Assembly: GCA_002005505.1 (NCBI GenBank)
Contig: MVGU01001743.1
Span: 5,001-32,500, forward strand
Source of the DNA: Botryococcus braunii
Lineage: Eukaryota; Chlorophyta; Trebouxiophyceae
Length of the DNA: 27,500 bases
Direction: 5' to 3'
The translations under genes and the position numbers were made by a program. The notes under the pieces are model-generated. The model ran no database searches, had not been told where the DNA came from, and saw nothing but the letters and a program-made list of their open reading frames with translations. Positions 1,846-25,163 of this stretch are shown here, in pieces (within the stretch, counting starts at the first letter, position 1; each line of letters opens with the position of its first letter).

Positions 1846-2449
1846 CTATAGGGGTTGAAATGGTTTTGGTGTACCAATGTTTTAAGCTTTTGGGCCTGGT
1901 ATGCCCTTTTCTTTTTCCTCACAATAGCATGGTACTTACGCTCTAACCTCCGGAACTCATCACCCCGCCATTTGGTTAACATTCCATACCTCCAGACTTC
2001 CCGTTTAAGGGCCCGGCATTCCTGGTCAAAAAAGGGTTGATGTTGACGCCGGTGTCCATTGTGGGGATACCTTTTGTATTGGTCATGCATTCCTGCTTTC
2101 TTTGCAGCATCTTTTATGAGTGCGTAGAGGCAATGAATGCTAGACTTAATGTCCCCATCTTCAACCGCTTTTTCACATTGGCTCATGAGGTTTAACTCAT
2201 CACTCTGTAATGCTTGGACATATATTGATCCATTGCAAATTGGCACCAGCTAATTTGTGACAATGGGTGTCCCCCTTGATCAGAAGAGGGACACGGTCTA
2301 GGATGAATAGGAATAGACAAGGATGCACATAGTGGGAAATGGTCAGACTCTGACCTCTCACAATCAATGCCACTGTCTTCTAGGAAGCCAAACGTGACAA
2401 GAAGATGGGGAAATGTCCCCAATAATCTACTAAAAGCCAAACCTGACAA
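1767..2449 (-). pseudogene. LINE endonuclease end and linker, frameshifted
   Basis: Two overlapping minus-strand frames continue the LINE upstream of the RT. Frame 2449-2192 carries the endonuclease tail (GIDCERSESDHFPLCASL; the SDH triad is typical of APE-type endonucleases). Frame 2246-1767 carries the lysine/arginine-rich linker that leads to NPYRFWK. The join near 2218-2224 looks like a 2-bp insertion in a TATA run. The join to the RT near 1838-1842 looks like loss of one A in an A-run. The N-terminal endonuclease is missing. Frameshifts in short repeats may be real decay or assembly errors. Confidence 0.7.
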
Positions 2450-3399: not shown

Positions 3400-4890
3400 T
3401 TATGGCCTCAAATTTAAGAAGTCGTCCAACTCGTCTTCCTGCAATCATCAGTTCCCACCAAAGTTCATCAACCATAACTAAACCAAGTTTCATCAAAATC
3501 AAAAGATTGCTGCATACGTAGTGAATAAAGAATAACTAACAACGTGAAGCAGATGAATCATTTTTACCTGGAGGTCCATGAGCTCGGGATCAACAAGGGA
3601 CGCGTTGACATCAACCTGCACCATATTGTACCAGCCTGTCAAGAGTGAGTATGTTTCAAATAACAGAACTATACCTAAAAAAAAAGACATACATTGTCCC
3701 TGCTCATTTACATTATATCCGTTTGACTGTGATATAAAGGCAAATATTTGAAGGTTAGCAGCAGCGACAGCTCAAAAGATTACTATCTGCAAAGGAGCAA
3801 CAATGCAAGCAGACCAGGAAATCACGAGGGCTGCAAACTCACGAATAGCATATGTACCTGCTGGCCGGCGACATGCAACATCTGCCGTAAAGGTTGCTGA
3901 TGTCCACTGCCAGACTCCTGCAGCAAGAGCAGAAACACTTCAAGGAGGAGCTCTGCACGCCTGGATTTCAAGGTCGAATGCAAAAAACAAGCAGCAGCAG
4001 CGACTGAACAAAGGATTTACTATCTGCAAGCAAAGATGCAGCGATGCGAGCAAGGCTGGAAATCGTGAGGGCTCCAAAAGTCAAGCACAGCGTGTACCTG
4101 CTGCCTCGGGACATGAGACATCTGCTGAAAAGGTTACTGATGTCCACTGCCAGCCTCCTGCAGCAACAGCAGAAACACTTCAAGGAGAAGATCTGCACGC
4201 CTGGCAGTCAAGATCGAATGCAAAAAACAAGTAGTAGCAGCAGCGACAACACAAATGATTACTTTCTGCAAGAACAAAAGCATCAATGCAAGAAAAGCAG
4301 CAAATCATGAAGGCTCCAAGAGTCAAGAACAGTGTGTACCTGCTGGCTGGCGACGTGCGACATCTGCCGACAAGTTTGTTGATATCCACTGCAAAACTCC
4401 TGCAGCAAGAGCAGAAGCACTTCAAGGAGGAGCTCTGCACGCCTGAATTTCAATGTCGAATGCAAGAAACAAGCAGCAACAGCGACAGTTGAAAAGGATT
4501 ACTCTCTGCAAGCAAACAAGCAGCGATGCAAGCAAAGCAGGAAATCACGAGGGCTGCAAAGTCACGAACAGCATATGTACCTGCTGGCCGGCAACGTGCG
4601 ACATGTGCCGTAAAGGTTGCTGATATCCCCTGCAAGACTCCTGCAGCAAGAAAATAAACATTTCAAGCCTAGAATCTACATGTTGAAGGAAAGTGACAAG
4701 CTAGGGGACGCAGTAAAGTTACCTGCCACGAATCGGTGCAGTCAGATCCGAAAGGGATACAGATTGCCGGCTCCTGCCACTCCATCCCTTTTCTCCTTGT
4801 TCCGAAAAAGATTCACTTTCAAATGCGCATTTACAAAGAGCATCTTCCAGGAAAGTTTGGCACAGAGGAACGGCCAAACAGTGGCCTAAA
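3400..4890 (-). CDS. Host gene, 3' part, with tandemly duplicated exon-like units (model)
   Basis: Manual exon model on the minus strand; the protein is not recognised. The terminal exon is 3438-3400, coding EDELDDFLNLRP then TAA, after acceptor GATTGCAG. The preceding exon is 3635-3568 (68 nt), coding VDVNASLVDPELMDLQ, with donor CAG/GTAAAA. The junction is in phase 0 and reads as a continuous acidic tail. Upstream lie four 60-nt blocks, 3917-3858, 4157-4098, 4399-4340 and 4640-4581, each between TGCTGCAG and GTACRY. Before these, a frame from about 4880 to 4723 (SEQGEKGWSGRSRQSVSLSD and surroundings) ends at CAG/GTAACT. Implied introns are about 82-222 nt. The phase is unresolved: the frame from the upstream exon runs through all four blocks as R-S-L-A-V-D-I-S-N-L, but the frame that fits the 3568 exon is a different one. 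The gene may therefore be decayed, alternatively spliced, or missing an exon in my model. Earlier exons are not visible; the transposon complex lies there. Confidence 0.45.
3759..4690. repeat. Four tandem copies of a ~241-bp unit
   Basis: Equivalent points recur at 3858, 4098, 4340 and 4581, a spacing of 240, 242 and 241 bp. Shared segments include ATCTGCCG..., CTCCTGCAGCAA and CTTCAAGGAGGAGCTCTGCA. Copies differ by scattered substitutions and small indels, but the 60-nt block between the splice-like signals is the same length in all four. The last copy (4581-4690) degenerates at its right end. Confidence 0.85.
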
Positions 4891-5092: not shown

Positions 5093-6438
5093 GGGTTCCG
5101 TGCCCAACGGTACCCCCACAAAATTTTTCGGTTAGTTAGCGAGATTCAGTCGGGCTGCGGGGTTATAAATGTAGGTTCGAATCGATTGGTCGGATCGCCA
5201 CCCGGGTTTGTGAGGCCCCGGGACCTAGCACTTGGGAGGGACCTACTGGACCGCTCCCGGTCTTGCGACCGGTCTTTCGGACGATAACCGGAGGCTGGCT
5301 CCGATCGCGGTTAGGCTAGCACGGCTCTGACTGGTGGGGCTGGACTCGTGCTGGACCTTGTGGTTAAAGAGTTATTAGATTACTATCGGTTTTCTTAAAA
5401 GGTTTCTGTTCTCCAGGATGTGTGTTTTCTTCCTATTGTGTTTTCTTGAAGTTCATCCGGGTCTTCCGGATCAGGGTTTAGGCGGCTTACGGCTACGTCG
5501 CGGCGATTGCTCAGATGTTTCTCTGCTGTTGTGAGGACCTAGAATATGAGTATTTCGAAGTCTCTGTGGGGTCGGATGGTGGTGTGCGTTTGATCTCGTG
5601 GTGAGGCTTGTGAGGCCGTGTATGGTGTAAGTTTGTCGTCTTACTTACAAGGGTATTGTTCTACTCACGTTTATCTTTCAACTTGACAGGTTAATTATGA
5701 CTATATTATTTCACATTCAGTAGGAATTTGGGTGTTACCAGGCAAATTAACGGTTATCACCGGGACGATCAATGGCCTAACTCGGCAAGTCAGTGGTGTC
5801 ACAAAAAGTACTATTATACTGCAAGTGATGTGTTTCAGAAACAATTCCAAATAACAGGTCAAACAATCAACATCCCTATTTCGCCGGGGGCCGCGGACAG
5901 ACACGGAGTTGGGGCGCTATGCTTTACACGCAACTTTCCGAATTATACTGTTGCTTGTGGGCCGGAGGCTGAGCCCCTAATATACACTCTCCTCTAGTAA
6001 TACTTACAGCTTCCCAAGCCGTATTAACACATGCCCTCACATGATCAAGGGCGGCTAAAACACTGCCAACACATCGATCAGCGGACGGCTAAAAGTCAAA
6101 GTTCCTCGTGCCGAGCTGCATGGCACCTACCGAGTACCAAAGTCTCCGCGAACATTCAATTCCAACCGTTGCTTCGAATGAAAGCACCGGAATACACAAT
6201 TTTGCCCTTAGGACCTAAATCAGGGACAAATACCCCAGTCCAGGTACAAAAGGGTAAAGACAGGCGCCATTTTTCCACGACTTTATGAAACGTCAAATAA
6301 GAGCCATAATAAAAGCTGTACAAGTCCGATTGAGGGTTGTTTACTTATCACCTTTGTGGCTACGCCAAATACACACATTGTCAGTTTAAATCAATCGGAT
6401 GGCCACCAATGTACACGGTCACACTCCAGTTCACGACA
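5093..6438 (-). repeat. Probable 3' LTR of the gypsy element
   Basis: Aligns without indels to 20830-22175 at a constant offset of 15737, with three substitutions seen (5646, 5990 and 6004). Read on the minus strand it starts TGTCGTGAACTGG and ends CGGAACCC. The adjacent inner side has a purine tract at 6448-6463. The small ORFs inside are present in both copies only because the repeats are nearly identical; none resembles a known protein. Confidence 0.75.
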
Positions 6439-7630: not shown

Positions 7631-10600
7631 CTATTCGCTAGCATCCTTGCGGCTTGTCCCAGGTCGGTGTCGTTTGTCAGCGGCTAAGTACTCAAGTACT
7701 TCTTCATCGTCCACAAGGTCGCGAGAGGGGACGGCATCCGCAATCTGGTCACATAAAGGGCATAGCCAGGGTCCCCTGGGTACCCGGGCCAGTGCAGGCT
7801 CCAAACAGTCGATGTGGTATCCGTGGTTGCCGAGGTCACATAGTAGCATGGTCTCCTCATCATCTCTTCCCGTGCATACTTGGCACGGTACATCTTCCAT
7901 AAGCGGCGGGCTGTCAGTACGCATACGCGGTGTAGTCTTAGGTTCTTGGCTGGCCATAGCGGCAGAACGGCCAGATATAGTCTCCGTAGGCGGCTGCAGG
8001 TCATAAATCTGTGTTGATTCAATTCTCATCTCCGGAAGGCAGTCCCTGGAAGGGGGTGCATCATCCTCCGGGGTCGTCATGCGGCGTAGGGTTGGTGAAG
8101 TTACTATCTCTCCGCGCTGGGTGGTATCGTGCGCGGGTGGCGGGTAAGGTTGGTCCAGGTCCATTGTGTCTCCAGCAGGCGGCATATTTTCCTTGTCAAA
8201 GGTCATGGTGTAGCAGTGCATGTGGTTCTCCTCATTATTTTCTTCTTCTAACGGCGGCGGCGGCGGCTCTTCACTGTAGTCTTCTCCGGGGGGCGGCATT
8301 AGGCGTAGACGGGAAAGGCAATCCACATTCCCATGCAAGGTCCCCGAGCGGTGCTGGATGTCAAAGTCATATTCTTGTAGTTCGATGGCGTATCGTGCTA
8401 GTTTGCCGGACAAATTGCGTGAAGTGAGTAACCACTTCAAAGCTTTGTGGTCTGTTACTATAGTAAATTGAACTCCATAGAGGTAGGGGCGGAATAGCTT
8501 CACGGCCCACACTATGGCAAGCAGCTCCCCATCCGTTGGAGAGTAGCTGAGCTCTGCTCCTTGTAAAGTTTTGCTGGCGTATGCGATCACATGGTCACCA
8601 TCCTCGAACTCCTGGCCCAGAATGGCGGCGGCGGCTCCGGGCTGCCAATCAGTGTATAGGGTGAATTTCTTGCTGAAGTCGGGGTATCGTAAAAGCGGCG
8701 CATCCACTAGCATAGCCTTGATGGCTTCAAAAGCGGCTTGGCAGTCAGTGGTCCAGTTGAAAACAATCCCCTTTCTCGTAAGCCGCGTCAATGGGGCAGA
8801 TATGGCGGCCATGTTGTGCAGAAATCTCCTGTAGTAGTTTGCAAGTCCCAAAAAGGACCTGACTTCGGTCACGTTCGTTGGCGGTGCTGCGTTGAGAACT
8901 GCCTCAACCTTGGAAGGGTTGGGCTTTATGCCTTGGGGCGTGATAATGTATCCTAAGTACAACACTTCACTGCAACATAACTCACACTTGGCCGGGTTGG
9001 CTCTAAAGCCCACCGCACGGAAGCGTTCAAGCACTAACTTCAAATGAGTGAGGTGGTCCTTAAATGTGCGGCTGTATACCAAACAATCATCTAAATAAAT
9101 GACACAACACTTGCCTATTAAGTCTTGCAATAGAGTGTTAACAAATCTCTGAAGCGTAGCCGGGGCGTTACGCAAGCCGAACGGCATTGATACAAACTCG
9201 AATAAACCTTCTTTGGTGGTAAAAGCGGTCTTTGCACGGTCCTCTGGGGCTACTGGTATCAACCAAAAGGCTGACTTGCAATCAATCTTACTTAAATATT
9301 CCACCCCCTGACCTAAGGAATCTAGGGTCTCGTCTATCCTAGGCATGGGGTAGTTGTCACGTCGGGTAACTGCATTTAATGGACGGTAGTCAATACAAAA
9401 CCGGACAGAGCCATCCGGCTTGCCTACTAACACAGGCGAACTAGACCAAGGAGAGCTGGAAGGCACTATCACTCCAGCCTCTAGCATTTTGTGAACTTCT
9501 TCCTCGATCACCTGATCCTCCGAACGGGACAAGCGATAAGGGCGTGTTTTGATGGGGACCGCATCCCCAGTGTCTATGCGGTGGTGCATTAAGGTGGTTC
9601 TTTCCTGTACTATACCTGGGGAAAATACGTCCCTGTACTCCTGTAATAATCTCTCAATCTCTTCTTCTCTCTTAGGACCCAATTTTCGCATCCCGGTGGT
9701 GATTTTTAACATGGGATCGGGGTCCTGTTTCATCTTTTCAGTATTTGTTATCTCTCTCAACTTCTGCATACCAGGATCTTCCTTCCTAAGGGAGGTGGGG
9801 ACACGAACAATTATGACAGGCCATCTGGTAGGGCCATAACGACGTCGCAGACCTGCAGGGTCCTCTCCCGGGGCCGTGAAAAGCTGCACACCAGGAGGGT
9901 ATTGTTTGATGATCTCAAATTGCTCCATTACTGTAGGAAACCAAGGGGCAGAAGGCCACCATGGTAGCACAAGTACTGCACTAGTGGTAAAGGGACTACT
10001 GGTGAAACACGCGAGGCAGTGATTCACAACTCTGTCAATTATCGAAAAAGGTGGGTTGCAATATATACTCAAATGGGTCCAGCTCTGCTGTAAACAATCG
10101 TCCTCAGCGGACCAATACAAAGGTAACTGAGAGTTGTGACCTTGGAGATCACAACATGCGTCGAGGTCAAAAGGACCCCACTGTGTTTCAATTTCTCTAA
10201 AAACATTAGTTTCCAACATCCAATCTTCAGTCATGTAAGGATGGGCTGCTAACTCAAGCTCTCGACCCTCGTTGCTTACTGTCGCAATGTAAATCTCATT
10301 CTCACTTCCGGAAGAGAAAGCCTCATGCTCCTCCGAATACTCTTCCTCCTCCTCGGAGGGTTCAGTACTAGGAATTTCTCCCTCACTCCCGGAATAAAGG
10401 TCTGTTTCTTCCTGGGATTCTTCTGACAGATCGTTCTCAATGTTTATAATTTCGTCTGGTAGGCCGGGTACCCCAGGTACCCCTGGGTCGGCGGGATGAC
10501 CCGCGGGACCATCGAAATCTATTCCTGGGACTCTCGCGACGCAATATCGGTTGCTGCTTTTACTGGCAGGCATGACAGTGATGGGAACTCTCCCCATAAT

Positions 10601-11351
10601 TTGTGGTTCTATTCGAAAAGACATCTCTTGCTTGGCGAAGCTTATCTCGGCGTGAGCCTGAGTAAGCCAATCTGTTCCAAGAAGTACATCATAAGAAGTC
10701 GCTCCACTAACAAATACGTCAATTGGTATTACTAAGCCCTCAACTCCTACAGGGAGCTTGCGAATAATGCCCCAAGGAGTGGACATTTTCCCATCTGCAC
10801 ACGAGTATCTAAGACGTGAAGGCTCAATCTGATCAATTAAATTTAACTGTCGTGCGGCTGATTGTGAAATCATTGTGTTTGTGGCACCAGTATCGATGAT
10901 GCCATCCTCAAATACTAAGTCATTAATGATTATAGGTACGGTGGCAACAGTGGTGTTCACCGGATTCCTTTGCAGGTTTGATTGTGGCATTTGCGTTGAA
11001 GGTGACTCCTCGTTGTCAGTCCTGCTAGTTGAGGTGGTCCCTCCAGAAACGTAGATAACTTCCGCATTGGTAGCTCTCGCTGGCGGCGGGTCTCGCTGTC
11101 TGTTACGCAGAAATTCCTCACGGGACTCCTTTAGCTCCATGATTGACTTGTTGAACTCCTCCTCGCTGATGTGGTTCAGGTAGGTTTGTACGGTGAGCTT
11201 CATGGGAAGCCCTTTAATCTGCTGAATGGGTTCTGCCGTAGCTGGTGCGCTGGCCACTGGTCTCCTGTAGGCGGCGGGACGTGCGGCATTAGGTAGGGGA
11301 GGCAATCCTCCAAGGTCCACGTGTGGACGCGCTGCTGGCTCCCTTGCAGGT
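7631..11351 (-). CDS. Gypsy pol part: protease, methyltransferase-like domain, RT, RNase H, PHD finger
   Basis: Residues are counted from the GTG codon at 11320-11318; the frame stays open upward to the copia insertion and joins gag in phase. The aspartic protease has DTGA at 143-146 and LLGTDWL at 213-219. An acidic Glu/Ser-rich linker spans 296-345. A domain resembling phage-type N6-adenine methyltransferases follows at about 364-508 (WGPFDLDA at 381-388, CNPPF at 421-425). RT spans about 584-790 with D680 and YLDD at 742-745. RNase H has D891, E932, D957 and D1000. After a proline/acidic linker comes a PHD-type zinc finger at 1146-1190 with the fourth Cys replaced by Gly1164. The frame ends at residue 1229, just after VDDEEVLEYL, and no integrase follows. 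The protein would act in cytoplasmic particles and the nucleus. RT/RNase H identity is certain, the methyltransferase-like fold likely, its activity unknown. Confidence 0.9.
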
Positions 11352-12043
11352 TGTTAGGTTATGGGCTTGGCGTATTCCTGTGCAGTGGCGGCACGGAGGG
11401 TGTGAGTCAAAGTTCGCTCTACTGTGTGACGAAGAGTAGAGTCAAGAACATGAACAATCAAGGACTGATTGGGCAACTTTAAGGAAACACCCGGAGTGCT
11501 TGTGTAGTCCCAACCAAGTCTATTACAATTGCTCACTTGCTCTCTCTTAACAACGGAATTCAATCTACCCTAACTGGTACGTACTCAGAAAGGATCAATC
11601 TCATTGTCCGATGATAAGATAGCCAAGCACATACACATAACATGAAATACTAAGGTCAACAAAGCCTAAAATCTCCCATTCTATTCACAATCACGTTACC
11701 TGTGCAGTGGCGGCACGGAGGGTGTGAGTCAAAGTTCGCTCTACTGTGTGACGAAGAGTAGAGTCAAGAACATGAACAATCAAGGACTGATTGGGCAACT
11801 TTAAGGAAACACCCGGAGTGCTTGTGTAGTCCCAACCAAGTGCCTTGCCTCTCCGTGCTAGCACCACTACCTTCCTGCACTAAACGTGTCTGTAACTTGC
11901 GTTATCTCTATCTACATTCAAATTGTTCCTAACCGCGAAGTCTTTGCAGTTTCGCCCATATTAGTCATTTATTATTGTCACTGACGGAAATGCCACCATT
12001 ACTCCACTGAGGGAAAGGCATAAATAACTCATCCAATACAACA
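11352..12043 (-). repeat. Copia 3' LTR
   Basis: 692 bp, the same as 18072-18763 at an offset of 6720 with no difference seen. Contains a 143-bp direct repeat at 11377-11519 and 11699-11841. Confidence 0.97.
11377..11841. repeat. 143-bp direct repeat inside the copia LTR
   Basis: CCTGTGCAGTGGCGGCACGG...CCCAACCAAGT occurs at 11377-11519 and again, apparently unchanged, at 11699-11841, 322 bp apart. The other LTR has the same pair at 18097-18239 and 18419-18561. It was therefore in the element before it transposed and may duplicate promoter or RNA-processing sequence. Confidence 0.9.
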
Positions 12044-12063: not shown

Positions 12064-15000
12064 ACCAGAACTTGGCAAGACCCAGTGAGTTTCTATGACC
12101 CTGAAACACTAATCTTACGAGTGGTTTAGTGAAGATGTCAGCCACATTCCTGGCAGACTGAATGTATTTGAAGTCAACCTGCCCCTTTGCAATAGCTTCA
12201 CGTGCAAAGTGACAGCTGATTGCAATATGCTTGGTATGTTTAGAATACACTGGATTCCTGAGGTGGTTGATGCACCCTTGGTTATCACAATGTATCTTCA
12301 CTATCCAAGGTAACACGCCAATTTCCTCTAGGAATCCCCTCAGCCAATTAGCTTCCTTCACAACAGCACTTGCTGCCATGAATTCTGCTTCTACTGTGGA
12401 AGTAGCCACAGCAGATTGCTTTTTGCTTCCCCACACAACTGCTCCTCCAAACACAGTGAGGACGAAGCCGGTGGTGGAGAAACGGTGGTCTTGATCTCCA
12501 CCGTAATCAGCATCAACATATCCCTCCAACTCTGTTTCTTTTCCACCAAGGATCAGAACCAGGTCTCGGGTTCCTTTAAGATATTTCAACACACGGATGG
12601 CCTCATTCCAGTGTGCTGTTGTGGGTGACATCCTGTACCTCGACAGAACTCCTACAGCCTGGGATATATCAGGACGAGTGGTGTTAGCTATGTAGAGCAG
12701 AGACCCAACTAACTCACAGTATCGATGACCAGGAGGCAGAACACTCCCAGCACCAATACTATCACTCCCATCCTTTGGTGCTGGCATCTGAGACATTACA
12801 AAATCTTTTGTCATTGGGGTATCGGGCCCAACTGACTCAAGATCAAGACCAAACTTCTCCACAAGTGCATCTATCTTAGGAATGCAACTCAGAGAGATTA
12901 ACCCCTTCTCTCTATCTCTCATGACTTGACAACCTAAGAAATCCTTCACCTCCCCCAGATCGTGGATGGTGAATTCTTTCTTGAGAAGCTCTTTCACTCT
13001 CTCCACCTCTGACATGCCCTTGGATACAATCAGGAGATCATCTACATAAATTAGCACGTAGGATTTACCCCCATCTTCAGAGCATCTCACATAAACTCCA
13101 GCATCACTCTTGCACACCACATACCCCATGACTTCAAGTTTGTCATTAAGGGTCTTGTGCCAGGCACGTGGGGCCTGCTTTAGGCCATACAGTGCCTTTT
13201 TGAGTCGACACACGGTATTACGATCACCATTCTCAAATCCTGGAGGTTGTGTTACATACACTTCTTCCTCCAGCTCACCATTGAGAAAGGCTGTCTTAAC
13301 ATCTACCTGGTGAATCTCGTAACCTTCCCTAGCAGCCACAGCTAGCAAGGTTCTCCTAGCTCCATAGCTGCTGGTTGGTGCAAAGACCTCCATGACATCT
13401 ACTCCAGGAATTTGTCGACACCCCTGAGCAACCAATCTTGCCTTGAATCTCAACACATTGCCATGTGCATCCATTTTCACTGAGAAAATCCAGTGAACTG
13501 GTATTACCTTATGTCCATGAGGTCTAGGAACATATTCCATAACCTCATGGGTGTCTAATGAATTCTGCTCTTCTTGCATCGCAGCTTTCCAGTATTCCCA
13601 CTGAGGAGACATCTGAGCTTCTCTTAAATTAGAGGGAACATGGATTTTACCAAATCTAACACCAGTGTGCTTCCCCTTCTCTCCCTTACCCTTGGGAGAA
13701 TCGTTGGTTGCACCCTCAGAACCCACTACTCTTCCACTGACACTCGCCGCACTACAGCTAGCTTTTCTCTCAGTGGTATCAGAGCTTTCTCTCATGCTTC
13801 TCTCTCTCTTGGATTCACACTTCGCACTGCTCAACTTGTTGTCTTGCACGCTCACATCTTCCTCCCAGACACAGGTACCTCCCGGGAAGCATCCATAGTC
13901 AGGAGGTTTCTCACATTGTCTGAGCTTCCGGTTCACCTCCACATCCACACGCTTACACATCCTCTCAAGCTCAGGCTCTTGAGGGCTCTCACAGGCAGGA
14001 GGAGGTAGGCTCTGGTCGCCCCTTTGCTTCCCCTCCCTTTCTTGAATTGTGTGTCTCTGACTTCCACGTTGTGTCACAAGAGTCTGTGACCTCTCATCCC
14101 TGACATCCTTCTCCCATACACAGGTACCTCTCAGGCTGCACTTGTAATTTGGGGGTACCACACACTGTCTGTGCACCTGATTCACCTCCTCTTCTCGGCT
14201 CTCACACAAGTACTGGGATGCAGACCCAGTACTGCTCTCACAGACATTTCTGGCTGTTTCCGAGAGAGTGGATTGTCTCTTCTCAGGACTGTGGCTGTCA
14301 CCACCTTCCCCTACCAGTCCACGCCACTGATGGGGAGAGCCAGGCGTTTCCACACAAGTCTCACCGCTGACATGAAGCTCATTCACTGGACAGGACCCAC
14401 CCGTGCAACTCAGCTCCCTGGGACCATTTGCAGTCATTATTGTGGCTGCCCCCCTCTCATCACTAACATGAAAATCAGAGCTCTCAGACTGGCACCCATC
14501 TACCTGCACTTCCCCTGGTCCCGGTGACTGTGTGTCACTTTCTGTTAGCCCCACTTTGTCTCTGCTCTCTCCCATCTCCTGTGACAGCAGGAGTTCTCTT
14601 GCAAGTGTTCGTTGCTCATGCCTCTGAGCTCTTGTCAGCCCATCAGCAGCCAAATTGGAATTCTCCAGGCTGGTTGGTCTGAGAGTCTCTTGAGCTCGCA
14701 TCATTTGTTGCTGTAGGCCCGAGTCCGAATGAGCGCCGCGGGCCAGGTCCAGAGTTGCTTCGATGGTCCTTCGGATCTCCGCGGGAGCAGTGGATCTCTG
14801 GGGGTCAGGCTCGGGCTCAGCCTTCCCAGAGGGTCCTGAACATTCTGAGTCTGCGTCTTTCTGGGAAATGTGAGGGTGCAATGTCTCAACGGACGAGTCC
14901 TGGATCTCTGCCTCACTGTCGTCTTCACAGGATACAGTAACTGGCTCTGGGTGCTGTTTGGAAGTGCTGGTTCCAGAGGGAACAGGGCACAGAAATTTCT

Positions 15001-17470
15001 CAGACTGAGCGGGAGTCACACTGAGACCAATACGAGAGGCCCCTCTGAGGTGCTCCACAAAGATGACATCTCTGCTTTCTCGCCATATGCCCCCACCCAT
15101 GTATATACGATAAGCTTTGGAGGAGGCTGAATAACCGGTGAGCATTCCTGGCACAGTTTTTGGTGCAAAGACTGGCCTCTGGACATCTGGGATATGCACA
15201 TATGCAAGGCAGCCCCATGTGCGCAGAAGTGAGACATCAGGCTTATATCCCCAGAATAATTCAAAGGGGGTAAGGTCCCTGCCTGTACTTGGGCCCATGT
15301 TGAGCAGGGTGCATGCTGTCTCCAGGGCTTCTTTCCAGAGGGTGGGACTGGCAGCAGCAAAGGCCAGGATAGTCCGGGTTCTTTCCTTCAGGGTTCGGTT
15401 GGCTCGTTCAGCCACTCCATTCTGCTGTGGGGTGTAGGGGGCAGAGGTCTCCAGCTTAGTCCCCTGGGAGGCACAGAACTCCTTGAACCGAGCATTAATA
15501 AATTCAGTTCCCCTGTCACATCTGACACACTTCACAGTGGTTTTTCGTTGCGTCTGCCAGTAAACAAGTAAGTCCCTGACAGCTGCACTGATGGTGTCTT
15601 TGGACTTTACTGGGATAACTGCTTTCCACTGAGAGGCTTCATCCAGTACAGTAACCCACAAACGTTCACCAGTAATGGCTGCAGGTGTAATGGGACCCAC
15701 AGTGTCTATGTGTACTCGGTCCAGAGGTTCCAAGGCAGGTCTGGTACTGGTTCCGAAAGAGGGTCTGGCAGTCTTTCCTTCAATACATGCTTCACAGTGT
15801 ACCGGGCAATCAGTGCAGGGAGAGAGGGAGGTGTCAATCCCAGTCACCAGGTTCTCCTTAGCAAGACGCTGCATCCACGTTTCTCCAGGGTGTCCCATTC
15901 TGCTATGCCAAATGTAACGTTTGGCACAGCTGTGCGACAAGATACTGGATTTTAACTGTTTGGTTGCACTGGCTGCATGCTTTGGTGTGCTGGTCCCTCT
16001 CACTGCAACTACACTATGAATGTAGTACAGTCCCATCTCTGCAGTGACCTGAGCTCTCCAGTGGTTTGGTCCACTGACATATGAAAAGGCACCCACATTG
16101 TCTGTTTGGAATACTGCACCATCCCTAAGGGCAGCAGATACTGACAGGATGTTGGTGGTAGCTGAGGGGACACACTGCACATGATGGATCCAGAAGGGAA
16201 TGCGTTGCGGGCTCAAAATACAGACTGACCCAGATGCAATAATACAACCAGTGGCATCAGAGGTAGCCAAGTGCAGGGGAATTGGTTTGGCATGGATGAT
16301 AGGATTATGCAGCAATGCCACGTCATTTACTAGGTGGACCGATGCCCCACTGTCAACCAGCCAGGAGTGCTGTAAGGGTTTACTGATCGTACTGTCCAGG
16401 ACATTGTGGGATATAGTGTACAGCATACCTTCAGGAGGAGGTGGAGGTGGAGCAGGAGGCTGGAACCAAGCAGGGAAGGCATCTGCACCATGATGGGCCA
16501 TTTGGGCTACTGGAGGATGGTGTCCACCCACAGGTGGCTGGCCCTGAGGCCACATGCCTTGCAGTTGCTGGACCGCTGCCACCACGTTCCTCTGGGTCTC
16601 CTCGTCCCTGCGCCTCTTTCTGCAGTCTCTCCAATAATGGCCCTTTTTATTACAGTAGTTGCAAACTCCCTTGGGATCAGATGCACTTGAAGACTGCTGA
16701 GCAGTTGCTGCACTTGCTGCTGGCGGGTTGCTGGCTCCACTAGTGCTTGGGGTGATGGCCAGGACTCTGGGCTGGCGGGGAGCTGTCTCATCAAAGCCCA
16801 GGGCCGCTGCAGTGGTACGTAGTAATTCAGCCAGTTTGTTGAGTGGAGATGCGACGGCTGTGGACAGGCTGCCAGGCTCCTTAGCTGCCTCAGGGAGACC
16901 CTGCACTATTTGGGTCGCTACAAAGCCATCCATCAGATGATGATTATTTCTGTGGAGGCAGGCTTTGAGATTGAGCATGCGATTCACGTATTGGGAAATT
17001 GTTTCATCATGTCTCATCCCTTGACCCATTTCTTGCAACCAGTCCATGTTTGCCTGAAGATTATGTCCACCAATGAATTTCCTGCATATGTACTCATATG
17101 CATCATATGCAGATCCCAGTTCTGCCAGTTCTCCTTGCCACTCCTCAGGCACAGATTCATACAACAGTAACAGAGCTGCTGCATCATGCAACGTGCCAGG
17201 CATGGCCTCCAGCACTGCAGGAAGGGACCCCTTTGCCTCATTGGCTGCCAAATAAGCACTCTTCCAGATCAGAATATTATGTCCCTTGTCCCTCAGTTTG
17301 ATGTGTACTTTAACCTGAGTGGGAATAACTTTTGGCAATACATCACCTTCCCCCCTTGATGTACTTGGGGTGCAGGGTTCTCGAACAGGTGTAGAGGTGG
17401 TGGTCTCGCTGCTTGAGGTTGACGCCCCACTCGTTGACTGCCCCTTCTTCTTCGATGTCATTGTCTGCAC
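12062..17470 (-). CDS. Copia Gag-Pol polyprotein, intact, 1802 residues
   Basis: A single frame from ATG at 17470, with no frameshift between gag and pol. Domains by residue are: copia-type Gag about 50-230; CCHC zinc knuckle C270, C273, H278, C283; proline run 338-346; aspartic protease DSGA at 373-376. The integrase zinc domain uses H522, H527, C559 and C562, and the catalytic core D589, D652 and E688. An unusually long hydrophilic spacer spans about 830-1270. RT covers about 1320-1560 (D1390 in VDVKTAFLNG, YVDD at 1475-1478) and RNase H about 1650-1780 (D1653, E1694 or E1696, D1729, ADIFTKPL end). All catalytic residues are present, so the copy looks competent. The spacer has two copies of RQC-x2-PP-x-Y-x-C-x3-GTCVWE-x-DV at 1101-1123 and 1185-1206. 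Copia identity is certain. Confidence 0.97.
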   Translation of the reverse strand: MQTMTSKKKGQSTSGASTSSSETTTSTPVREPCTPSTSRGEGDVLPKVIPTQVKVHIKLRDKGHNILIWKSAYLAANEAKGSLPAVLEAMPGTLHDAAALLLLYESVPEEWQGELAELGSAYDAYEYICRKFIGGHNLQANMDWLQEMGQGMRHDETISQYVNRMLNLKACLHRNNHHLMDGFVATQIVQGLPEAAKEPGSLSTAVASPLNKLAELLRTTAAALGFDETAPRQPRVLAITPSTSGASNPPAASAATAQQSSSASDPKGVCNYCNKKGHYWRDCRKRRRDEETQRNVVAAVQQLQGMWPQGQPPVGGHHPPVAQMAHHGADAFPAWFQPPAPPPPPPEGMLYTISHNVLDSTISKPLQHSWLVDSGASVHLVNDVALLHNPIIHAKPIPLHLATSDATGCIIASGSVCILSPQRIPFWIHHVQCVPSATTNILSVSAALRDGAVFQTDNVGAFSYVSGPNHWRAQVTAEMGLYYIHSVVAVRGTSTPKHAASATKQLKSSILSHSCAKRYIWHSRMGHPGETWMQRLAKENLVTGIDTSLSPCTDCPVHCEACIEGKTARPSFGTSTRPALEPLDRVHIDTVGPITPAAITGERLWVTVLDEASQWKAVIPVKSKDTISAAVRDLLVYWQTQRKTTVKCVRCDRGTEFINARFKEFCASQGTKLETSAPYTPQQNGVAERANRTLKERTRTILAFAAASPTLWKEALETACTLLNMGPSTGRDLTPFELFWGYKPDVSLLRTWGCLAYVHIPDVQRPVFAPKTVPGMLTGYSASSKAYRIYMGGGIWRESRDVIFVEHLRGASRIGLSVTPAQSEKFLCPVPSGTSTSKQHPEPVTVSCEDDSEAEIQDSSVETLHPHISQKDADSECSGPSGKAEPEPDPQRSTAPAEIRRTIEATLDLARGAHSDSGLQQQMMRAQETLRPTSLENSNLAADGLTRAQRHEQRTLARELLLSQEMGESRDKVGLTESDTQSPGPGEVQVDGCQSESSDFHVSDERGAATIMTANGPRELSCTGGSCPVNELHVSGETCVETPGSPHQWRGLVGEGGDSHSPEKRQSTLSETARNVCESSTGSASQYLCESREEEVNQVHRQCVVPPNYKCSLRGTCVWEKDVRDERSQTLVTQRGSQRHTIQEREGKQRGDQSLPPPACESPQEPELERMCKRVDVEVNRKLRQCEKPPDYGCFPGGTCVWEEDVSVQDNKLSSAKCESKRERSMRESSDTTERKASCSAASVSGRVVGSEGATNDSPKGKGEKGKHTGVRFGKIHVPSNLREAQMSPQWEYWKAAMQEEQNSLDTHEVMEYVPRPHGHKVIPVHWIFSVKMDAHGNVLRFKARLVAQGCRQIPGVDVMEVFAPTSSYGARRTLLAVAAREGYEIHQVDVKTAFLNGELEEEVYVTQPPGFENGDRNTVCRLKKALYGLKQAPRAWHKTLNDKLEVMGYVVCKSDAGVYVRCSEDGGKSYVLIYVDDLLIVSKGMSEVERVKELLKKEFTIHDLGEVKDFLGCQVMRDREKGLISLSCIPKIDALVEKFGLDLESVGPDTPMTKDFVMSQMPAPKDGSDSIGAGSVLPPGHRYCELVGSLLYIANTTRPDISQAVGVLSRYRMSPTTAHWNEAIRVLKYLKGTRDLVLILGGKETELEGYVDADYGGDQDHRFSTTGFVLTVFGGAVVWGSKKQSAVATSTVEAEFMAASAVVKEANWLRGFLEEIGVLPWIVKIHCDNQGCINHLRNPVYSKHTKHIAISCHFAREAIAKGQVDFKYIQSARNVADIFTKPLVRLVFQGHRNSLGLAKFW

Positions 17471-17519: not shown

Positions 17520-18005
17520 CTAATCACTGTCTGACTCCGTCTCCCAGTCAGCTTCACATCGAACACTCAGAGACAGGGTGTCTTTGAAAGCAGCTATCGG
17601 GATAGTGGACAATGCTAACTCCACTGAGTTGTACGCTGCAATTTCGGCTGTTTCCTGCTCTCTGTTCAGCCAGACAACGGTACGCCAATACTTCAGGAAC
17701 TTAGCCTTCGTGATGAACCCAGGCTCAAGATTCACAAACGAGATCTCCCACGGGGTGAACTTATAAGCTGGATACACAGGAAATCTATCCGCAAACCACG
17801 ATGGCAGAGGAAGCGGGCGTCCAGCGTACAGATGAAGAACGTAGTTTTTGATGACGAGTGCTCGCTCGTCCGGTGTACGTTCTCCTCGAGGTCCCCCAGC
17901 CTTGATTCGATCGTTGTACGAGGGAGGTCCAGTCCTTAGGTGCGCAGGAACGTTGACACAGGTAGTTTTTCTTGCCGTCTGCTTCGTGCGGCGTTTCTTA
18001 GCCCT
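17520..18005 (-). CDS. ATG-less leader ORF upstream of copia gag-pol, H3-tail-like start
   Basis: The frame is open from the codon after TGA (18008-18006) to TAG at 17520, 161 residues, and ends 49 bases before the gag-pol ATG. It contains no Met at all, so it would need a non-AUG start or splicing. It begins R-A-K-K-R then RTKQTARKTT: RTKQTARK equals histone H3 residues 2-9, covering the K4 and K9 contexts. The rest is protein-like, with YVLHLYAGRPLPLPSWFADR, then KFTPWEISFVNLEPGF, and an acidic end (WETESDSD). No family is recognised. It may be a captured host fragment, an accessory or Gag-leader protein, or a fortuitous frame. The length without stops and the composition favour real coding history. 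Confidence 0.5.
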   Translation of the reverse strand, partial: RAKKRRTKQTARKTTCVNVPAHLRTGPPSYNDRIKAGGPRGERTPDERALVIKNYVLHLYAGRPLPLPSWFADRFPVYPAYKFTPWEISFVNLEPGFITKAKFLKYWRTVVWLNREQETAEIAAYNSVELALSTIPIAAFKDTLSLSVRCEADWETESDSD

Positions 18006-18054: not shown

Positions 18055-18071
18055 GTGGTGGGCCCATAACC
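18055..18071 (-). other. Copia primer-binding site, half-tRNA type (initiator Met)
   Basis: The plus strand directly beside the 5' LTR reads GTGGTGGGCCCATAACC. As I recall the sequence, this equals the anticodon-arm segment of plant-type initiator tRNA-Met, not its 3' CCA end. The minus-strand RNA is complementary to it. Drosophila copia and yeast Ty5 are known to prime from an internally cleaved initiator tRNA-Met at this same region, so priming by a half-tRNA is inferred. Confidence 0.75.
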
Positions 18072-18086
18072 TGTTAGGTTATGGGC
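18062..18086. repeat. Inverted repeat masking the copia primer-binding site
   Basis: GCCCATAACC (18062-18071, primer site side) and GGTTATGGGC (18077-18086, inside the LTR end) are exact complements with a 5-base loop TGTTA. In the element RNA the LTR end could pair with the primer site in a 10-bp hairpin. Confidence 0.9.
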
Positions 18087-18763
18087 TTGGCGTATTCCTG
18101 TGCAGTGGCGGCACGGAGGGTGTGAGTCAAAGTTCGCTCTACTGTGTGACGAAGAGTAGAGTCAAGAACATGAACAATCAAGGACTGATTGGGCAACTTT
18201 AAGGAAACACCCGGAGTGCTTGTGTAGTCCCAACCAAGTCTATTACAATTGCTCACTTGCTCTCTCTTAACAACGGAATTCAATCTACCCTAACTGGTAC
18301 GTACTCAGAAAGGATCAATCTCATTGTCCGATGATAAGATAGCCAAGCACATACACATAACATGAAATACTAAGGTCAACAAAGCCTAAAATCTCCCATT
18401 CTATTCACAATCACGTTACCTGTGCAGTGGCGGCACGGAGGGTGTGAGTCAAAGTTCGCTCTACTGTGTGACGAAGAGTAGAGTCAAGAACATGAACAAT
18501 CAAGGACTGATTGGGCAACTTTAAGGAAACACCCGGAGTGCTTGTGTAGTCCCAACCAAGTGCCTTGCCTCTCCGTGCTAGCACCACTACCTTCCTGCAC
18601 TAAACGTGTCTGTAACTTGCGTTATCTCTATCTACATTCAAATTGTTCCTAACCGCGAAGTCTTTGCAGTTTCGCCCATATTAGTCATTTATTATTGTCA
18701 CTGACGGAAATGCCACCATTACTCCACTGAGGGAAAGGCATAAATAACTCATCCAATACAACA
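18072..18763 (-). repeat. Copia 5' LTR
   Basis: 692 bp; transcription enters from the right. TGTTGTATTGG...CCATAACCTAACA on the minus strand. Followed at its outer edge by the CAGGT target duplication (18764-18768). Confidence 0.97.
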
Positions 18764-19907
18764 CAGGTGCAGGAGGGGGTGCTGCTGGTGTTGTAGGTTC
18801 TACTGGTTGTCTCTGAGCTGGTGCAGGCCGAGGGGCGGCAGGCCTTGGTATGTTTCTTGGGTCAACTGTGGTGTCCTCCAGATTGTTGGGGCGGCGCCGA
18901 AGCAGCGGTTGGTTTGCTTCAGGTGGACTTTCTGCTGGCCTCTTAGTGGCATATATAGGATACACGGGAAAAGGATCCGTGAATCCATCATGCATTATTG
19001 TGGCGTGCTCCGGGGGCGGTTGCTCCGGTTGCTGTTCATGCTCCACAAACTTGGTGAAGTTGGCTGTGGGCTGTCGCTGTAGTTCTGCGATTTGAATTCG
19101 TAGTCTCTCCATCTCCCTTGTGAGGGTGTCAATGTCATTAATTGGGGGTGGCGCAGGTGCCTCCCTTGGTGGGTTGTTTGGTGCAATCTGCCTAGGCGGT
19201 GCTGCTGGCTGCTGGTTGCGTCGCTCCGGGAAGTCTCGCTGACGCTGCCAATTTCTGTTGTCTCTATTGTTCTCTCTCTGATTTTGCTGCGGCGGCGGGC
19301 GTGCTGCACGCTGATCCATATTGTCATCGGCGCGGCGATTCCATTGATCCATCCTCTCGCGCGCCGGCACTTGTATGTTCTGGCTTGAATACATGCCCCC
19401 TAAAGGCGCGTGTCCAAATGTTTGTTCATAATCAGCTGCCAATTTTATAATGTCGGCTAACGCTCCTTTGCCGGGGTAGGTCATCTGAACCCTCTCACGT
19501 AGATGTGGTACTAGACCTTTAACAAATAGTTGTGTTACCATTCTGGGAGGCAGAGAGTTCTGCAAATAACCCACTATTTTCCTGAATCTGTCAGCATAAC
19601 TCCTAACAGTCTCATTAGATTGTTGTGCACATGTGTCTAATTTCAACATAAGGGTGTTCTCATCGAGGCCAAATCTTTCGAGAAAAGCCTCCTTGCATTC
19701 ATCCCAGTCACTAAAGTCATCTTGATTTGCACGAAACCAGGTATATGCTTCTTCACGCATTGCGTGTTTGACAAATCGTAAAACTCGATCGCCCACTATA
19801 TGGTTGATCTCAATAAACAACTCAAAGGACTCAAGCCACTGAAAAGGGTCTTCTGTGGGCTTTCCATAGAAAAATTCTAAACGAACAGGAGTTTGTACGT
19901 CTGCCAT
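18681..19907 (-). CDS. Gypsy Gag part, split from pol by the copia insertion
   Basis: Starts at ATG 19907. Element coding runs to 18764; the last ~28 codons to the stop at 18681 come from the copia LTR. Residues 1-165 match the Ty3/gypsy retrotransposon Gag type (FYGKPTEDPFQWLESFELFI, W in the YTWF segment, KEAFLERFG, RSYADRFRKIV), the capsid that packages element RNA. Residues 190-250 are rich in Arg, Asn and Gln and probably bind RNA, since no CCHC knuckle is present. A short helix-like stretch (about 262-282) and a proline-rich tail follow. Counting phase across the insertion (18769-18770 plus 11351 form one codon) shows that Gag and Pol were one frame of about 1619 codons, with the insertion in the Gag-protease linker. 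Confidence 0.9.
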   Translation of the reverse strand: MADVQTPVRLEFFYGKPTEDPFQWLESFELFIEINHIVGDRVLRFVKHAMREEAYTWFRANQDDFSDWDECKEAFLERFGLDENTLMLKLDTCAQQSNETVRSYADRFRKIVGYLQNSLPPRMVTQLFVKGLVPHLRERVQMTYPGKGALADIIKLAADYEQTFGHAPLGGMYSSQNIQVPARERMDQWNRRADDNMDQRAARPPPQQNQRENNRDNRNWQRQRDFPERRNQQPAAPPRQIAPNNPPREAPAPPPINDIDTLTREMERLRIQIAELQRQPTANFTKFVEHEQQPEQPPPEHATIMHDGFTDPFPVYPIYATKRPAESPPEANQPLLRRRPNNLEDTTVDPRNIPRPAAPRPAPAQRQPVEPTTPAAPPPAPVLYWMSYLCLSLSGVMVAFPSVTIIND

Positions 19908-20829
19908 TCTAGTTGTTTAATCAAACAAGGCCTTACGCTCTAGATGGCCTAACACACTATTAGAGATTACGCTCGTGTGTTCACGACACAAATTAATGTC
20001 AGATATGGCTGGTACTGCTACTTACTGTATTGCTGATTCTGCTGTTTTAGCTGGCTGCAGGGGTGCCTGTTCAACAAACGGAGTGTAATCAGACCCCTCC
20101 TAAAGGGGCATCCCGTGAACCCAATTGCAATCGTGCAATGCTAGTCTATTGTAAATTTGGTAATACAAGGTTTCTTTCTGCTTGTTACATTCACTGCAGT
20201 TATAAAATTAACGAATCGTATTACTAAGGTTGCAGTATCTTCAACCTAAACAAGGTCCCACTACCAACCTTGGACTTCCAGAAGATAAAGGCAATCCTTA
20301 CAAAGGTACTGTGAATGATCTTTAAATACTACAACAACTGCTACTACAATTTCTTAGATCGATCAAATATATATTCTTCCTGATGCGTATCCAACTACCG
20401 CGATCTTTGGGGCTGCAAAGATTTCGATAAACAAACAATCAAGCAATCGCGGCTATGAAATTAAGGTCTTTACTGTTGATAAAATTCACACAAACAGAAA
20501 TCAAGTGCTGCAATCAATCAAATTGTCTCAACTAACCGTGCAGTACAGACGATGATGTGCTATAAACTGAACTTTCCAAAAGTATGGTTTCGCTTCAAAC
20601 GGTTGATGCTGATGCTTCTGCTGTCAACTCCTGCGACAAACGGAATGTAATCAAGCCCCTCCTAAAGGGGTATACCCAGCCCTATATGCAGACAAAGCTC
20701 AACTGATTCAAGTTACGGTACAACTTTGTACAAGAAACACGGCAAACTCTGCGCAGAAAGACCAGCTTCGAAGAGCCTAGGGTTAACAAACTTAACACGC
20801 TAATGACTCCCTGGACGGATCGCCATATA
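19908..20829 (-). other. Gypsy 5' leader, no gene seen
   Basis: Untranslated leader between the 5' LTR and gag. Two related segments lie near 20067-20115 and 20628-20675 (AACGGARTGTAATCARRCCC followed by CTCCTAAAGGGG), so part of the leader is duplicated. Each carries a small CCCCT/AGGGG hairpin. No open frame worth noting. Confidence 0.6.
20807..20825 (-). other. Possible gypsy primer-binding site
   Basis: Minus strand TGGCGATCCGTCCAGGGAG starts with the TGG expected for pairing to a tRNA CCA end and lies 4 bases from the 5' LTR. I cannot match it to a specific tRNA. Confidence 0.35.
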
Positions 20830-22175
20830 GGGTTCCGTGCCCAACGGTACCCCCACAAAATTTTTCGGTTAGTTAGCGAGATTCAGTCGGGCTGCGGGGT
20901 TATAAATGTAGGTTCGAATCGATTGGTCGGATCGCCACCCGGGTTTGTGAGGCCCCGGGACCTAGCACTTGGGAGGGACCTACTGGACCGCTCCCGGTCT
21001 TGCGACCGGTCTTTCGGACGATAACCGGAGGCTGGCTCCGATCGCGGTTAGGCTAGCACGGCTCTGACTGGTGGGGCTGGACTCGTGCTGGACCTTGTGG
21101 TTAAAGAGTTATTAGATTACTATCGGTTTTCTTAAAAGGTTTCTGTTCTCCAGGATGTGTGTTTTCTTCCTATTGTGTTTTCTTGAAGTTCATCCGGGTC
21201 TTCCGGATCAGGGTTTAGGCGGCTTACGGCTACGTCGCGGCGATTGCTCAGATGTTTCTCTGCTGTTGTGAGGACCTAGAATATGAGTATTTCGAAGTCT
21301 CTGTGGGGTCGGATGGTGGTGTGCGTTTGATCTCGTGGTGAGGCTTGTGAGGCCGTGTATGGTGTAAGTTTGTCGTCTTACTAACAAGGGTATTGTTCTA
21401 CTCACGTTTATCTTTCAACTTGACAGGTTAATTATGACTATATTATTTCACATTCAGTAGGAATTTGGGTGTTACCAGGCAAATTAACGGTTATCACCGG
21501 GACGATCAATGGCCTAACTCGGCAAGTCAGTGGTGTCACAAAAAGTACTATTATACTGCAAGTGATGTGTTTCAGAAACAATTCCAAATAACAGGTCAAA
21601 CAATCAACATCCCTATTTCGCCGGGGGCCGCGGACAGACACGGAGTTGGGGCGCTATGCTTTACACGCAACTTTCCGAATTATACTGTTGCTTGTGGGCC
21701 GGAGGCTGAGCCCCTAATATACACTCCCCTCTAGTAATACGTACAGCTTCCCAAGCCGTATTAACACATGCCCTCACATGATCAAGGGCGGCTAAAACAC
21801 TGCCAACACATCGATCAGCGGACGGCTAAAAGTCAAAGTTCCTCGTGCCGAGCTGCATGGCACCTACCGAGTACCAAAGTCTCCGCGAACATTCAATTCC
21901 AACCGTTGCTTCGAATGAAAGCACCGGAATACACAATTTTGCCCTTAGGACCTAAATCAGGGACAAATACCCCAGTCCAGGTACAAAAGGGTAAAGACAG
22001 GCGCCATTTTTCCACGACTTTATGAAACGTCAAATAAGAGCCATAATAAAAGCTGTACAAGTCCGATTGAGGGTTGTTTACTTATCACCTTTGTGGCTAC
22101 GCCAAATACACACATTGTCAGTTTAAATCAATCGGATGGCCACCAATGTACACGGTCACACTCCAGTTCACGACA
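20830..22175 (-). repeat. Probable 5' LTR of the gypsy element
   Basis: Partner of 5093-6438 (1346 bp, no indels, three substitutions at 21383, 21727 and 21741). Its outer edge is followed by GTCTAACTAATACTT and not by the TATGTGGCA seen beside the other copy. Confidence 0.75.
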
Positions 22176-23528: not shown

Positions 23529-24187
23529 TATAGCTACTGGACATCAAGAAGGGCCGAAAAATTGATCGCCTTCTCGTTTGAAACTCGCCTAATCATCTGG
23601 ACGGTCTTACAAACTTTCTAATTTACCCACCTGCCAATTTCCCAACCTATCAACTTCCCAACTTACCAGGCTATTAAGAAGTGCAGCTCATGCATACATT
23701 TGGATATAGTAGCAAAGCTGCCCAGGAAATTCGCGCCCCACAGGACTGCTACAGCAGCATGCAGCCCAAAATATCACACGCACACACGCAGAGCACGCTT
23801 CGAAACTCACGATTTCCTACCATGTCACCCAAGAATGGTGATAAGCACTAGCGGCCATGTACTACCCTCCCTCTCTACACACATTGGAGTGCTCTTGGAT
23901 GCAGACCCCAAAGGGAGCTCACCGGACGTATTGCAACACTTGCACCCCTGCAACTGCATGCAGGCCCCAAAACATGCATGCTAAAAAATACTTGGAACGA
24001 ACAGGCCATAGACCATGTGTCTTACAGTGCCTCAAGGGCTGTGCGAGCAGTACGCAACTGCAGCCCATAAGATTGAATCCCGCACCGCCTGACCACAGCC
24101 CCGCTGAGCTGCTGCCTCGTGAACATTGCAGGTGCAATAACAGCATGCTACATTACCACTCCGTGCCTCTCTTGACATCATCACCTT
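23529..24187. other. Intergenic stretch, no gene seen
   Basis: Plus-strand frames at 23700-23984 and 23857-24237 lack recognisable domains, and overlap each other in different phases. I see no supported gene here. Confidence 0.4.
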
Positions 24188-24705
24188 ATGCAAATATCGC
24201 CATCCATCACCACATGCATGTTGCCGTTGTTAGCTAAATATCACCATCCATCACCTCATCGATGTTGCTGTTGTCAGCTAAAAATCACCATCAATCGCCA
24301 CATGGCTGTTGTTCTTGGCTAACTATCTCTATCCATCCCCACATCGATGTTATTGTTGTTAGCTAGATATCCCCATCCATCCCCACATGCCTATTACTGT
24401 TGTTAGCTAAATATCACCATTCATCAACACATGCCTGTTGTGGTTGTTGTTGGCTAAATATGACCATCCATCCCAACATGCATGTTAATGTTGTAAGCTA
24501 GATATCACCATCCATCACCACATCAATGTTGCTGTTGTTAGCTAAGTATCACCATCCATCTCCACATCGATTTTGCTGTTGTTACCTAAATATCCCCATC
24601 CATCACCGCATGCCTGTTGTTGCTGTTCTTAGCTAAATATCACCATTCATCCCCACATGCCTGTTGCTGTTGTCAGCTAAATATCACCATCAATCGCCGT
24701 ATGCC
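24188..24705. repeat. Minisatellite, ~44-bp unit, about twelve copies
   Basis: Unit of the form TAGCTAAATATCACCATCCA followed by TCACCACATG and a GTTGCTGTTG segment. The CCATCCATC anchor recurs near 24200, 24245, 24287, 24332, 24373, 24416, 24463, 24509, 24552, 24596, 24641 and 24687. Units differ by many substitutions, so the array is old. The whole period varies and no spacer class exists. Confidence 0.85.
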
Positions 24706-25163
24706 TGCATCAGCAATGAAGAAATAGGGGTATAATCACCCCATGCTTGCAGGGATTTGTTGTCACTGCCACCCGCTTTCCAGATCATACACCATCGCCC
24801 CAAGCCCGGGCTATTACTCAGCTGCAAGCCGCACTCTTACACTTGCGCAGCATCAGAGGCGTGCTTCCTAACTTATGCACCACAACCCTTCCTCAAAGAC
24901 CACTGAAAGCATGGTCACACCATGCTTTGGAGGCTATGCATCCTCACAAATCTCAGCTGCTTCTGCATTCATAACTAAAAACTGCTCTCTATGCAAATCC
25001 AACACGTACTCTATCAACTGATCAGTGCTATGGACCGAACAGGGGACCGAACGGGCAACAGTTAGTGTGAGTGACTAGTAACACCCCATGCTCCAGTGTG
25101 CTGCTCCAATCACAACATGCCTGATTAAGCATTACATAACCACGCTGCTGTGTTTGGGGATGA
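24706..25163. other. Downstream flank of the right-hand host gene
   Basis: Contains the 3' UTR side of the minus-strand gene ending at 25164. One plus-strand frame (24747-24974) has no recognisable content. Confidence 0.4.

Follow-up and report, generated by a model that had tools for sequence, protein, structure and literature searches.

A histone H3 tail-like leader protein in Ty1/copia elements of Botryococcus braunii, possibly aimed at host H3K9 methylation

A leader gene ahead of gag-pol

Directly 5′ of the gag-pol frame of a retrotransposon in the trebouxiophyte green alga Botryococcus braunii, a reading frame opens with residues of the histone H3 tail, which raises the question of whether this frame is a gene and, if so, at what its product might be aimed. 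The locus lies in the window, i.e., the whole stretch of 27,500 nucleotides that was analysed. A sequence-only reading had described at this place a 161-codon frame without any ATG, and this is borne out: the frame runs on the minus strand from 18005 to 17520, where it closes with TAG. Its first residues are indeed RAKKR, and residues 6-13 read RTKQTARK and are followed by TT, all as claimed. The element to which the frame belongs has the following parts.

18764 to 18768, no strand: target-site duplication ACCTG on the 5′ side of the copia insertion; the flanking ACCTG abuts the TGTTG of the LTR and recurs directly after the 3′ LTR
18072 to 18763, minus strand: copia 5′ LTR, 692 bp, TG...CA, identical to the 3′ LTR
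18057 to 18071, minus strand: probable copia primer-binding site GGTTATGGGCCCACC, called from the sequence and directly adjoining the LTR
17523 to 18005, minus strand: leader protein frame, 161 codons, with AGG at the start position and the stop TAG at 17520-17522
17967 to 17990, minus strand: RTKQTARK of the leader, equal to H3 residues 2-9, from the translation; conserved in branches A-C
17586 to 17915, minus strand: helical domain of the leader, residues 31-140, with the conserved core YPAYKFTPWE, from the predicted structure
17523 to 17555, minus strand: acidic C-terminal tail of the leader, EADWETESDSD
12065 to 17461, minus strand: gag-pol, one open frame, 1799 codons from MTSKKKG (first Met), 1805 from stop to stop
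11352 to 12043, minus strand: copia 3′ LTR, 692 bp
11347 to 11351, no strand: target-site duplication ACCTG on the 3′ side of the copia insertion

The window element is a Ty1/copia LTR retrotransposon, with paired LTRs running from TG to CA, a short target-site duplication and an integrase that precedes the reverse transcriptase. Pfam places rve at 585-684 and RVT_2 at 1312-1556 of the 1805-residue gag-pol frame, and the complete series of gag and zinc knuckle (both weak matches), integrase, SH3-like domain and RVT_2 follows the copia order. The primer-binding site GGTTATGGGCCCACC presumably resembles the half tRNA-iMet site of Drosophila copia. Each LTR also contains an internal direct repeat of ~300 bp with a spacing of 322 bp and 64% identity (18072-18693 and 11352-11973).

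As for its surroundings, the copia element is nested in a gypsy element, with gypsy gag at 18681-19916 and pol at 7631-11353. Two identical direct repeats of 300 nt (5093-5392 and 20830-21129) are probably the gypsy LTRs, in which case the gypsy element would measure ~16 kb with the copia element nested in it. The gypsy polyprotein (7631-11353, minus strand) ends in a PHD finger (Pfam E 1.5e-9) and also includes a Dam-like adenine methyltransferase (3.6e-13), so that another element of the window likewise has a chromatin-related module. Elsewhere, reverse-transcriptase-like frames at 1-2249 (minus strand) look by eye like LINE fragments, and repeat arrays with units of ~44 bp and ~240 bp occupy 24175-24707 and 3789-4667.

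When the window leader was used as a query against its own 176-Mb genome, 150 matches were scored among 796 candidates, with identities falling from 100% to 45%. A branch D leader and a third query, P0007, each gave 150 scored matches in turn (of 809 candidates in the same genome and of 797, respectively), and the three sets of matches overlap partly. Internal stops in relatives, which would have spoken against a gene, are not a family-wide trait, since 129 of the 150 matches to the window leader are stop-free and 21 have stops, as counted over the matched stretches, some of which are partial. Gag is regularly preceded by the leader: among 100 gag matches checked (125 in total), 96 have a leader or a leader tail directly upstream on the same strand, the four without one being on C128, C205, C232 and C473. 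The frame is under purifying selection, with dN/dS of 0.085-0.258 (Nei-Gojobori) for 12 hand-picked pairs of open frames; the analysis was limited to open full-length frames, of which 51 were found, or 45 once identical DNA was removed. When all pairs are taken, pN/pS is 0.19-0.31 within groups and 0.28-0.55 between groups, where synonymous sites are saturated.

Profile searches with the leader extended the family by gene models from Botryococcus and by a small number of metagenome proteins, and a further profile search added nothing new to these; the proteins nearest to the window leader are the EukProt gene models Botrbrau1. In a tree of the leader domain without its tail (49 rows), branch D stands apart from the rest with a support of 100/99, and the metagenome proteins fall on the A-C side, outside A-C, under the root as drawn. 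A D copy, L132, has LTR-like upstream repeats, the primer-site sequence, a leader and a gag start with the STSRGEGDVLPKVI segment of the window element. Since this is an equal layout, D is the same kind of element as the window copia. The leader is best explained, from these comparisons, as the first gene in a Botryococcus superfamily of Ty1/copia elements, encoding a small protein that is presumably translated in the cell.

AlphaFold2, run on 36 aligned sequences, predicts a mostly confident helical domain at about residues 31-140, which reaches a mean pLDDT of 84 when modelled alone. Residues 1-20 have a pLDDT below 50, as expected for a histone-like tail. No Pfam family was found for the leader at E ≤ 1 and no PDB sequence match at E ≤ 10, so that by sequence no recognisable histone fold or domain follows the tail; fold searches with the model gave no significant match. 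On the predicted structure, the best explanation is that the leader consists of a disordered, H3-imitating tail at the N terminus, followed by a compact helical domain and an acidic C-terminal stretch.

The H3-like tail and its ninth residue

The H3 likeness was assessed against chance in two ways. A pattern coding for TKQTARK has 297 exact matches in the 176-Mb genome and none when reversed; among the matches listed, three fall in host H3 genes and the rest contain DNA words known from the leader families, and all 10 places whose context was read are leaders. For two D tails with 12/16 and 11/16 H3 matches, not one of 400,000 residue shuffles each was as good, and for a third, weaker tail (7/16) 362 of 400,000 were. 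By these counts, the H3 match of the leader tail is not a product of chance.

In branches A-C, the tails read MAKKRRTKQTARKTT, MAKRRRSKQTARKTT and MAKKRTKQTARKTT, with KK or KR residues inserted after Ala1 and KKRR-type basic runs at the start. The H3-like stretch is conserved across these relatives, which keep K4-Q5-T6-A7-R8-K9 despite heavy synonymous change. In a tally of 73 copies, A7 is present in 73, T6, R8, K9 and T10 in 72 each, and T11 in 71. Rows entered this tally if position 4 was K or R, position 5 was Q and positions 10 and 11 were T, S, I or P, with 6-9 left free, so that the K4 and Q5 counts arise partly by construction; the tally takes in nine rows with P and one with I at position 3, the R8G copy among these. 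Three copies break the site (L067, R8G; L077, K9N; L074, T6R). Fourteen loci fall outside the tallies (L027, L028, L029, L065, L066, L075, L080, L081, L082, L083, L091, L106, L112 and L117), some of them frameshifted or cut. Two of the fourteen, L091 and L106, belong to D and have Met9, and L082, which stands alone, has a tail (IARTPKWRKGL) with hardly any likeness to H3.

Such conservation could in principle reside in a cis-acting RNA signal for packaging, dimerisation or splicing, and not in the peptide. The 5′ leader is the usual place of such signals, and the region is kept in both of the aligned deletion forms described below. However, over H3 codons 4-9 of A-C (24 distinct DNAs) the synonymous sites vary heavily and the amino acids stay (pS 0.857 vs pN 0.035), the same residues being written with different codons, which makes an RNA signal very improbable as the thing conserved.

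Branch D tails, e.g., MARTRQTGRMSTGG, MGRTKQTGRMSTGGKRP, MARKRPTGRMSTGG and MGRTKQSGRMSTGGKRP, are more H3-like than those of A-C at the very N-terminal end, yet have Met where H3 has K9. The best of them, L158, equals host H3 (MARTKQTARKSTGGKAP) at 13 of 17 residues, the start Met included. Of 60 fetched D stretches, 58 are readable; 56 of these have Met at position 9 and the other two have Ile. Genome-wide, an exact pattern for the D tail that stops at R8 matches 310 times (reversed control, 3), with ATG as the next codon in 302 (control, 0) and a Lys codon in none (control, 1). Met or Ile at the position of the target lysine with Arg before it is thus confined to branch D, A-C having Lys there. 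In a tally of 63 D rows, R2, G7, R8 and G12 are each found in 62, and positions 3, 4, 5, 6, 10 and 13 vary; position 4 is Arg, not K4, in 51, and the one row without Gly at position 7 has Arg. Its 61 Met and two Ile at position 9 are conditional, the tally having admitted M, I or K there; it counts one genomic place twice (L086 and L132) and leaves out the D-like rows L097, L099 and L149, all of which read GRM.

By the genome-wide and fetched counts, Met9 is near-fixed in D. Common descent alone could explain this in young copies; the synonymous divergence of the D tail speaks against it, pS being 0.466 and pN 0.166 over the whole tail (H3 1-12). The corresponding pN/pS of 0.36 compares with 0.31 for the D protein, i.e., the tail is no more constrained. 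Codons 7, 8, 9 and 12 give a pS of 0.485 and a pN of 0.066, but these positions were chosen after their conservation was known, and the whole-tail figure is the fair one.

The metagenome relatives keep the basic character of the tail and lose exact H3 matches: P0005 and P0011 have Arg at position 9 (QTARR), and in P0009, P0010 and P0015 the tail is scrambled. It is therefore worth asking whether the tail is simply a basic, disordered RNA- or DNA-binding or nuclear-import segment, whose H3 likeness stems from a shared use of basic peptides or from inheritance and which does not act on histone enzymes. The basic runs of A-C, the metagenome tails and the ordinary constraint on the whole D tail are all in keeping with this. 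What it does not readily account for is that uncharged H3 residues and their order are kept (Q5, T6, A7 and T11 in A-C; T11, G12 and often Q5 and G13 in D), that shuffles of equal composition fall short for two of the three D tails tested, and that Met9 is near-fixed amid varying neighbours. On balance, we regard a generic basic segment as unlikely.

The tail might also be a recently captured fragment of a host H3 gene, carried without function. The 13 of 17 matches of L158 (start Met counted) invite this thought, as does host H3 exon 1, which spans the region. However, where residues are common, D tails share 0-4 of 7-10 codons with host H3 in a small sample, and the leader is under purifying selection; host H3 genes share 3-7 of 12-13 codons with one another. 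Comparison with the organism's own H3 genes, which the sequence-only reading had suggested as a way to tell capture from convergence, makes a recent, functionless capture highly improbable, and either ancient capture or convergence would fit the counts. One divergent host H3 gene, L034, with the tail MARTKQTARKSVGGNRP, is possibly a centromeric H3; the GGNRP in its tail resembles the GGNRPPP of some D tails.

The original claim of a conserved coding sequence with a genuinely H3-tail-like N terminus stands, given hundreds of copies, dN/dS and the conservation of the tail. By sequence, the leader is an H3-tail mimic, the match being beyond chance, under selection and borne by a non-histone protein.

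Start-less and truncated lineages

The absence of ATG in the window copy is a peculiarity of its sublineage. Eight copies (L001-L008, L007 being the window copy) have AGG at the start position after an in-frame TGA, where most branch A relatives read ATG GCT AAG after that same TGA. ATA is found at the leader start in L060-L062, and nearly all other readable relatives have ATG, the exceptions being L082, L097, L099 and L149. Six of the seven other AGG copies match the window copy to ~750 bp upstream, the edge of the LTR, beyond which their flanks are unrelated; L004 departs already 200-250 bp upstream. Because these copies share element DNA and have unrelated flanks, the AGG sublineage spread after the loss of the standard start. 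The ATA sublineage was inserted at three separate sites. Since start-less sublineages spread, the leader is either not strictly needed in cis or made in another way.

Truncated leaders are a second such group. When 10 places with the tail word were fetched, nine proved to have leaders cut within the domain by one of two deletions (seven and two copies), and the tenth is shortened in another way. The deletion copies (L133-L136 and L138-L142) keep the H3-like tail without the C-terminal half of the domain, and the two deletions, whose junctions were aligned for L133 and L134, end at an almost identical point near the stop codon. Most TKQTARK places, among the matches listed, have the same DNA word as the deletion copies, which may therefore be very numerous. 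Several leaders of the deletion form precede an open gag-pol frame. This abundance of truncated and start-less lineages fits a product that acts in trans, and would fit one that is dispensable as well.

A possible target in host H3K9 methylation

K9 of H3 serves cells as a silencing mark. In published work, an H3 tail whose target lysine is replaced by Met or Ile becomes a trap for its methyltransferase. We propose that the leader, by mimicking the H3 tail, targets the presumed H3K9-methylation machinery of the host, acting as a substrate or decoy in A-C and as a K9M-type inhibitor in D, a proposal that we consider evenly poised between right and wrong. The tail would present an H3K9-like site to this machinery. 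In A-C, including the window copy, the substrate-like QTARKTT might itself be methylated, or it might keep the methyltransferase or chromodomain readers occupied. In D, R-[M/I]-S-T-G-G would be a dead substrate that binds the active site of the SET domain and traps the enzyme as H3K9M does. The silencing of the element would be weakened as an outcome, and, because a diffusible inhibitor would help every copy, a lineage could still spread after losing its start codon or half of its domain. We infer binding and inhibition of an SUVH-type methyltransferase, to the benefit of the element.

The tails favour the H3K9-methylation pathway over a reader of H3K4 or of the free N terminus, since R8-K9 or R8-Met9 is kept throughout, A-C have insertions after Ala1 and D has Arg4 in 51 of 63 tails. 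According to passages of PMC8303541, the human enzyme SUV39H1 demands R8, prefers or tolerates K/R at position 4 and T/S/A/Y at 6, and likewise S/K/R at 10, A/G/S/T at 11 and G/K/Q at 12. Measured against these human specificities, D tails lie within the sets at position 4 in 63/63, 6 in 62/63, 8 in 62/63, 11 in 63/63, 12 in 62/63 and 10 in 51/63, and at position 7 none of the 63 has a residue that those passages name (PMC8303541). In Chlamydomonas, the SUVH homologue SET3p is an H3K9 mono-methyltransferase needed for the silence of transgenic tandem repeats, as reported in passages of PMC8566409. In the genome of the window, one exon with SET and post-SET domains was found; among solved structures, the one nearest to it in sequence is the H3K9-specific SUVH6, although a weak match led to the exon and MLL-type enzymes score nearly as high.

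The same K9 context could serve a different end, in which the tail binds chromatin readers and anchors Gag particles or the preintegration complex at chosen chromatin, thereby steering integration. Reader-recruiting mimics of the H3 tail are known in general, the leader gene adjoins gag, and the intact site of A-C could be methylated and then read by chromodomains. However, the D site cannot be methylated, because it has Met in 302 of 310 matches and never Lys, and an H3K9M peptide was unbound by the fission-yeast chromodomains tested, according to passages of PMC5030085. We therefore find tethering through readers unlikely.

Several points weigh against the inhibitor reading itself. Metagenome relatives have Arg9, a residue that is inactive in the EZHIP work, D has Gly7 and A-C have extra basic residues. 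The abundance of truncated and start-less lineages may mean that the product is dispensable, constraint on the D tail as a whole does not exceed that on the D protein, and site-breaking copies (a few) and matches with stops (21 of 150) exist. Going further, the superfamily may have evolved its own "oncohistone," a trans-acting, H3K9M-like trap beside sisters with a K9 decoy and outside relatives with R9, in an arms race over one residue in which cheater lineages use the inhibitor of others; we would put this a little short of an even chance.

Known systems resemble the leader in part. H3K9M histones, the mutant H3 that traps Clr4/G9a, likewise have Met for K9, and R8 is kept and T11/G12 are mostly kept in D; they are, however, mutated histones, whereas the leader is a separate retrotransposon protein with G7 and often R4, for which inhibition is proposed by analogy. 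The mammalian PRC2 inhibitor EZHIP (CXorf67) is, like the leader, a non-histone protein with Met at a lysine position after Arg. It inhibits PRC2 with a K27M-like peptide in which Met or Ile work and Lys or Arg do not, as stated in passages of PMC6513997, and Ile is the one other residue in readable D tails. In contrast to the leader, with its N-terminal K9-like region in a mobile element, EZHIP is a host gene with a K27-like peptide near its C terminus. VANC of the Arabidopsis VANDAL transposons is an element-encoded counter to host silencing, the role proposed here, but it is sequence-specific, leads to DNA methylation loss on its targets and is not from a copia element, and the abstract of PMC5735166 contains no H3 mimicry. 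The additional ORFs of plant LTR retrotransposons are extra genes beside gag and pol, as is the leader; a term search for "histone" in the main text of a review of them (PMC7264820) gave no match, and no 5′ leader gene with an H3-like tail appears in passages of that review. In the top-ranked open-access matches on histone mimicry and transposable elements, on anti-silencing, on additional ORFs and on Botryococcus retrotransposons, no retrotransposon protein that mimics H3 is described.

The leader touches on the open question of how transposable elements escape silencing by H3K9 methylation. If D tails act like H3K9M, nature would have selected the lysine-to-methionine trick of tumour histones and EZHIP, here at K9 and in a selfish element. 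With K, M or I, and R at position 9 of one scaffold, the idea is directly testable, and if it is true, these tails would be genetically encoded inhibitors of H3K9 methyltransferases.
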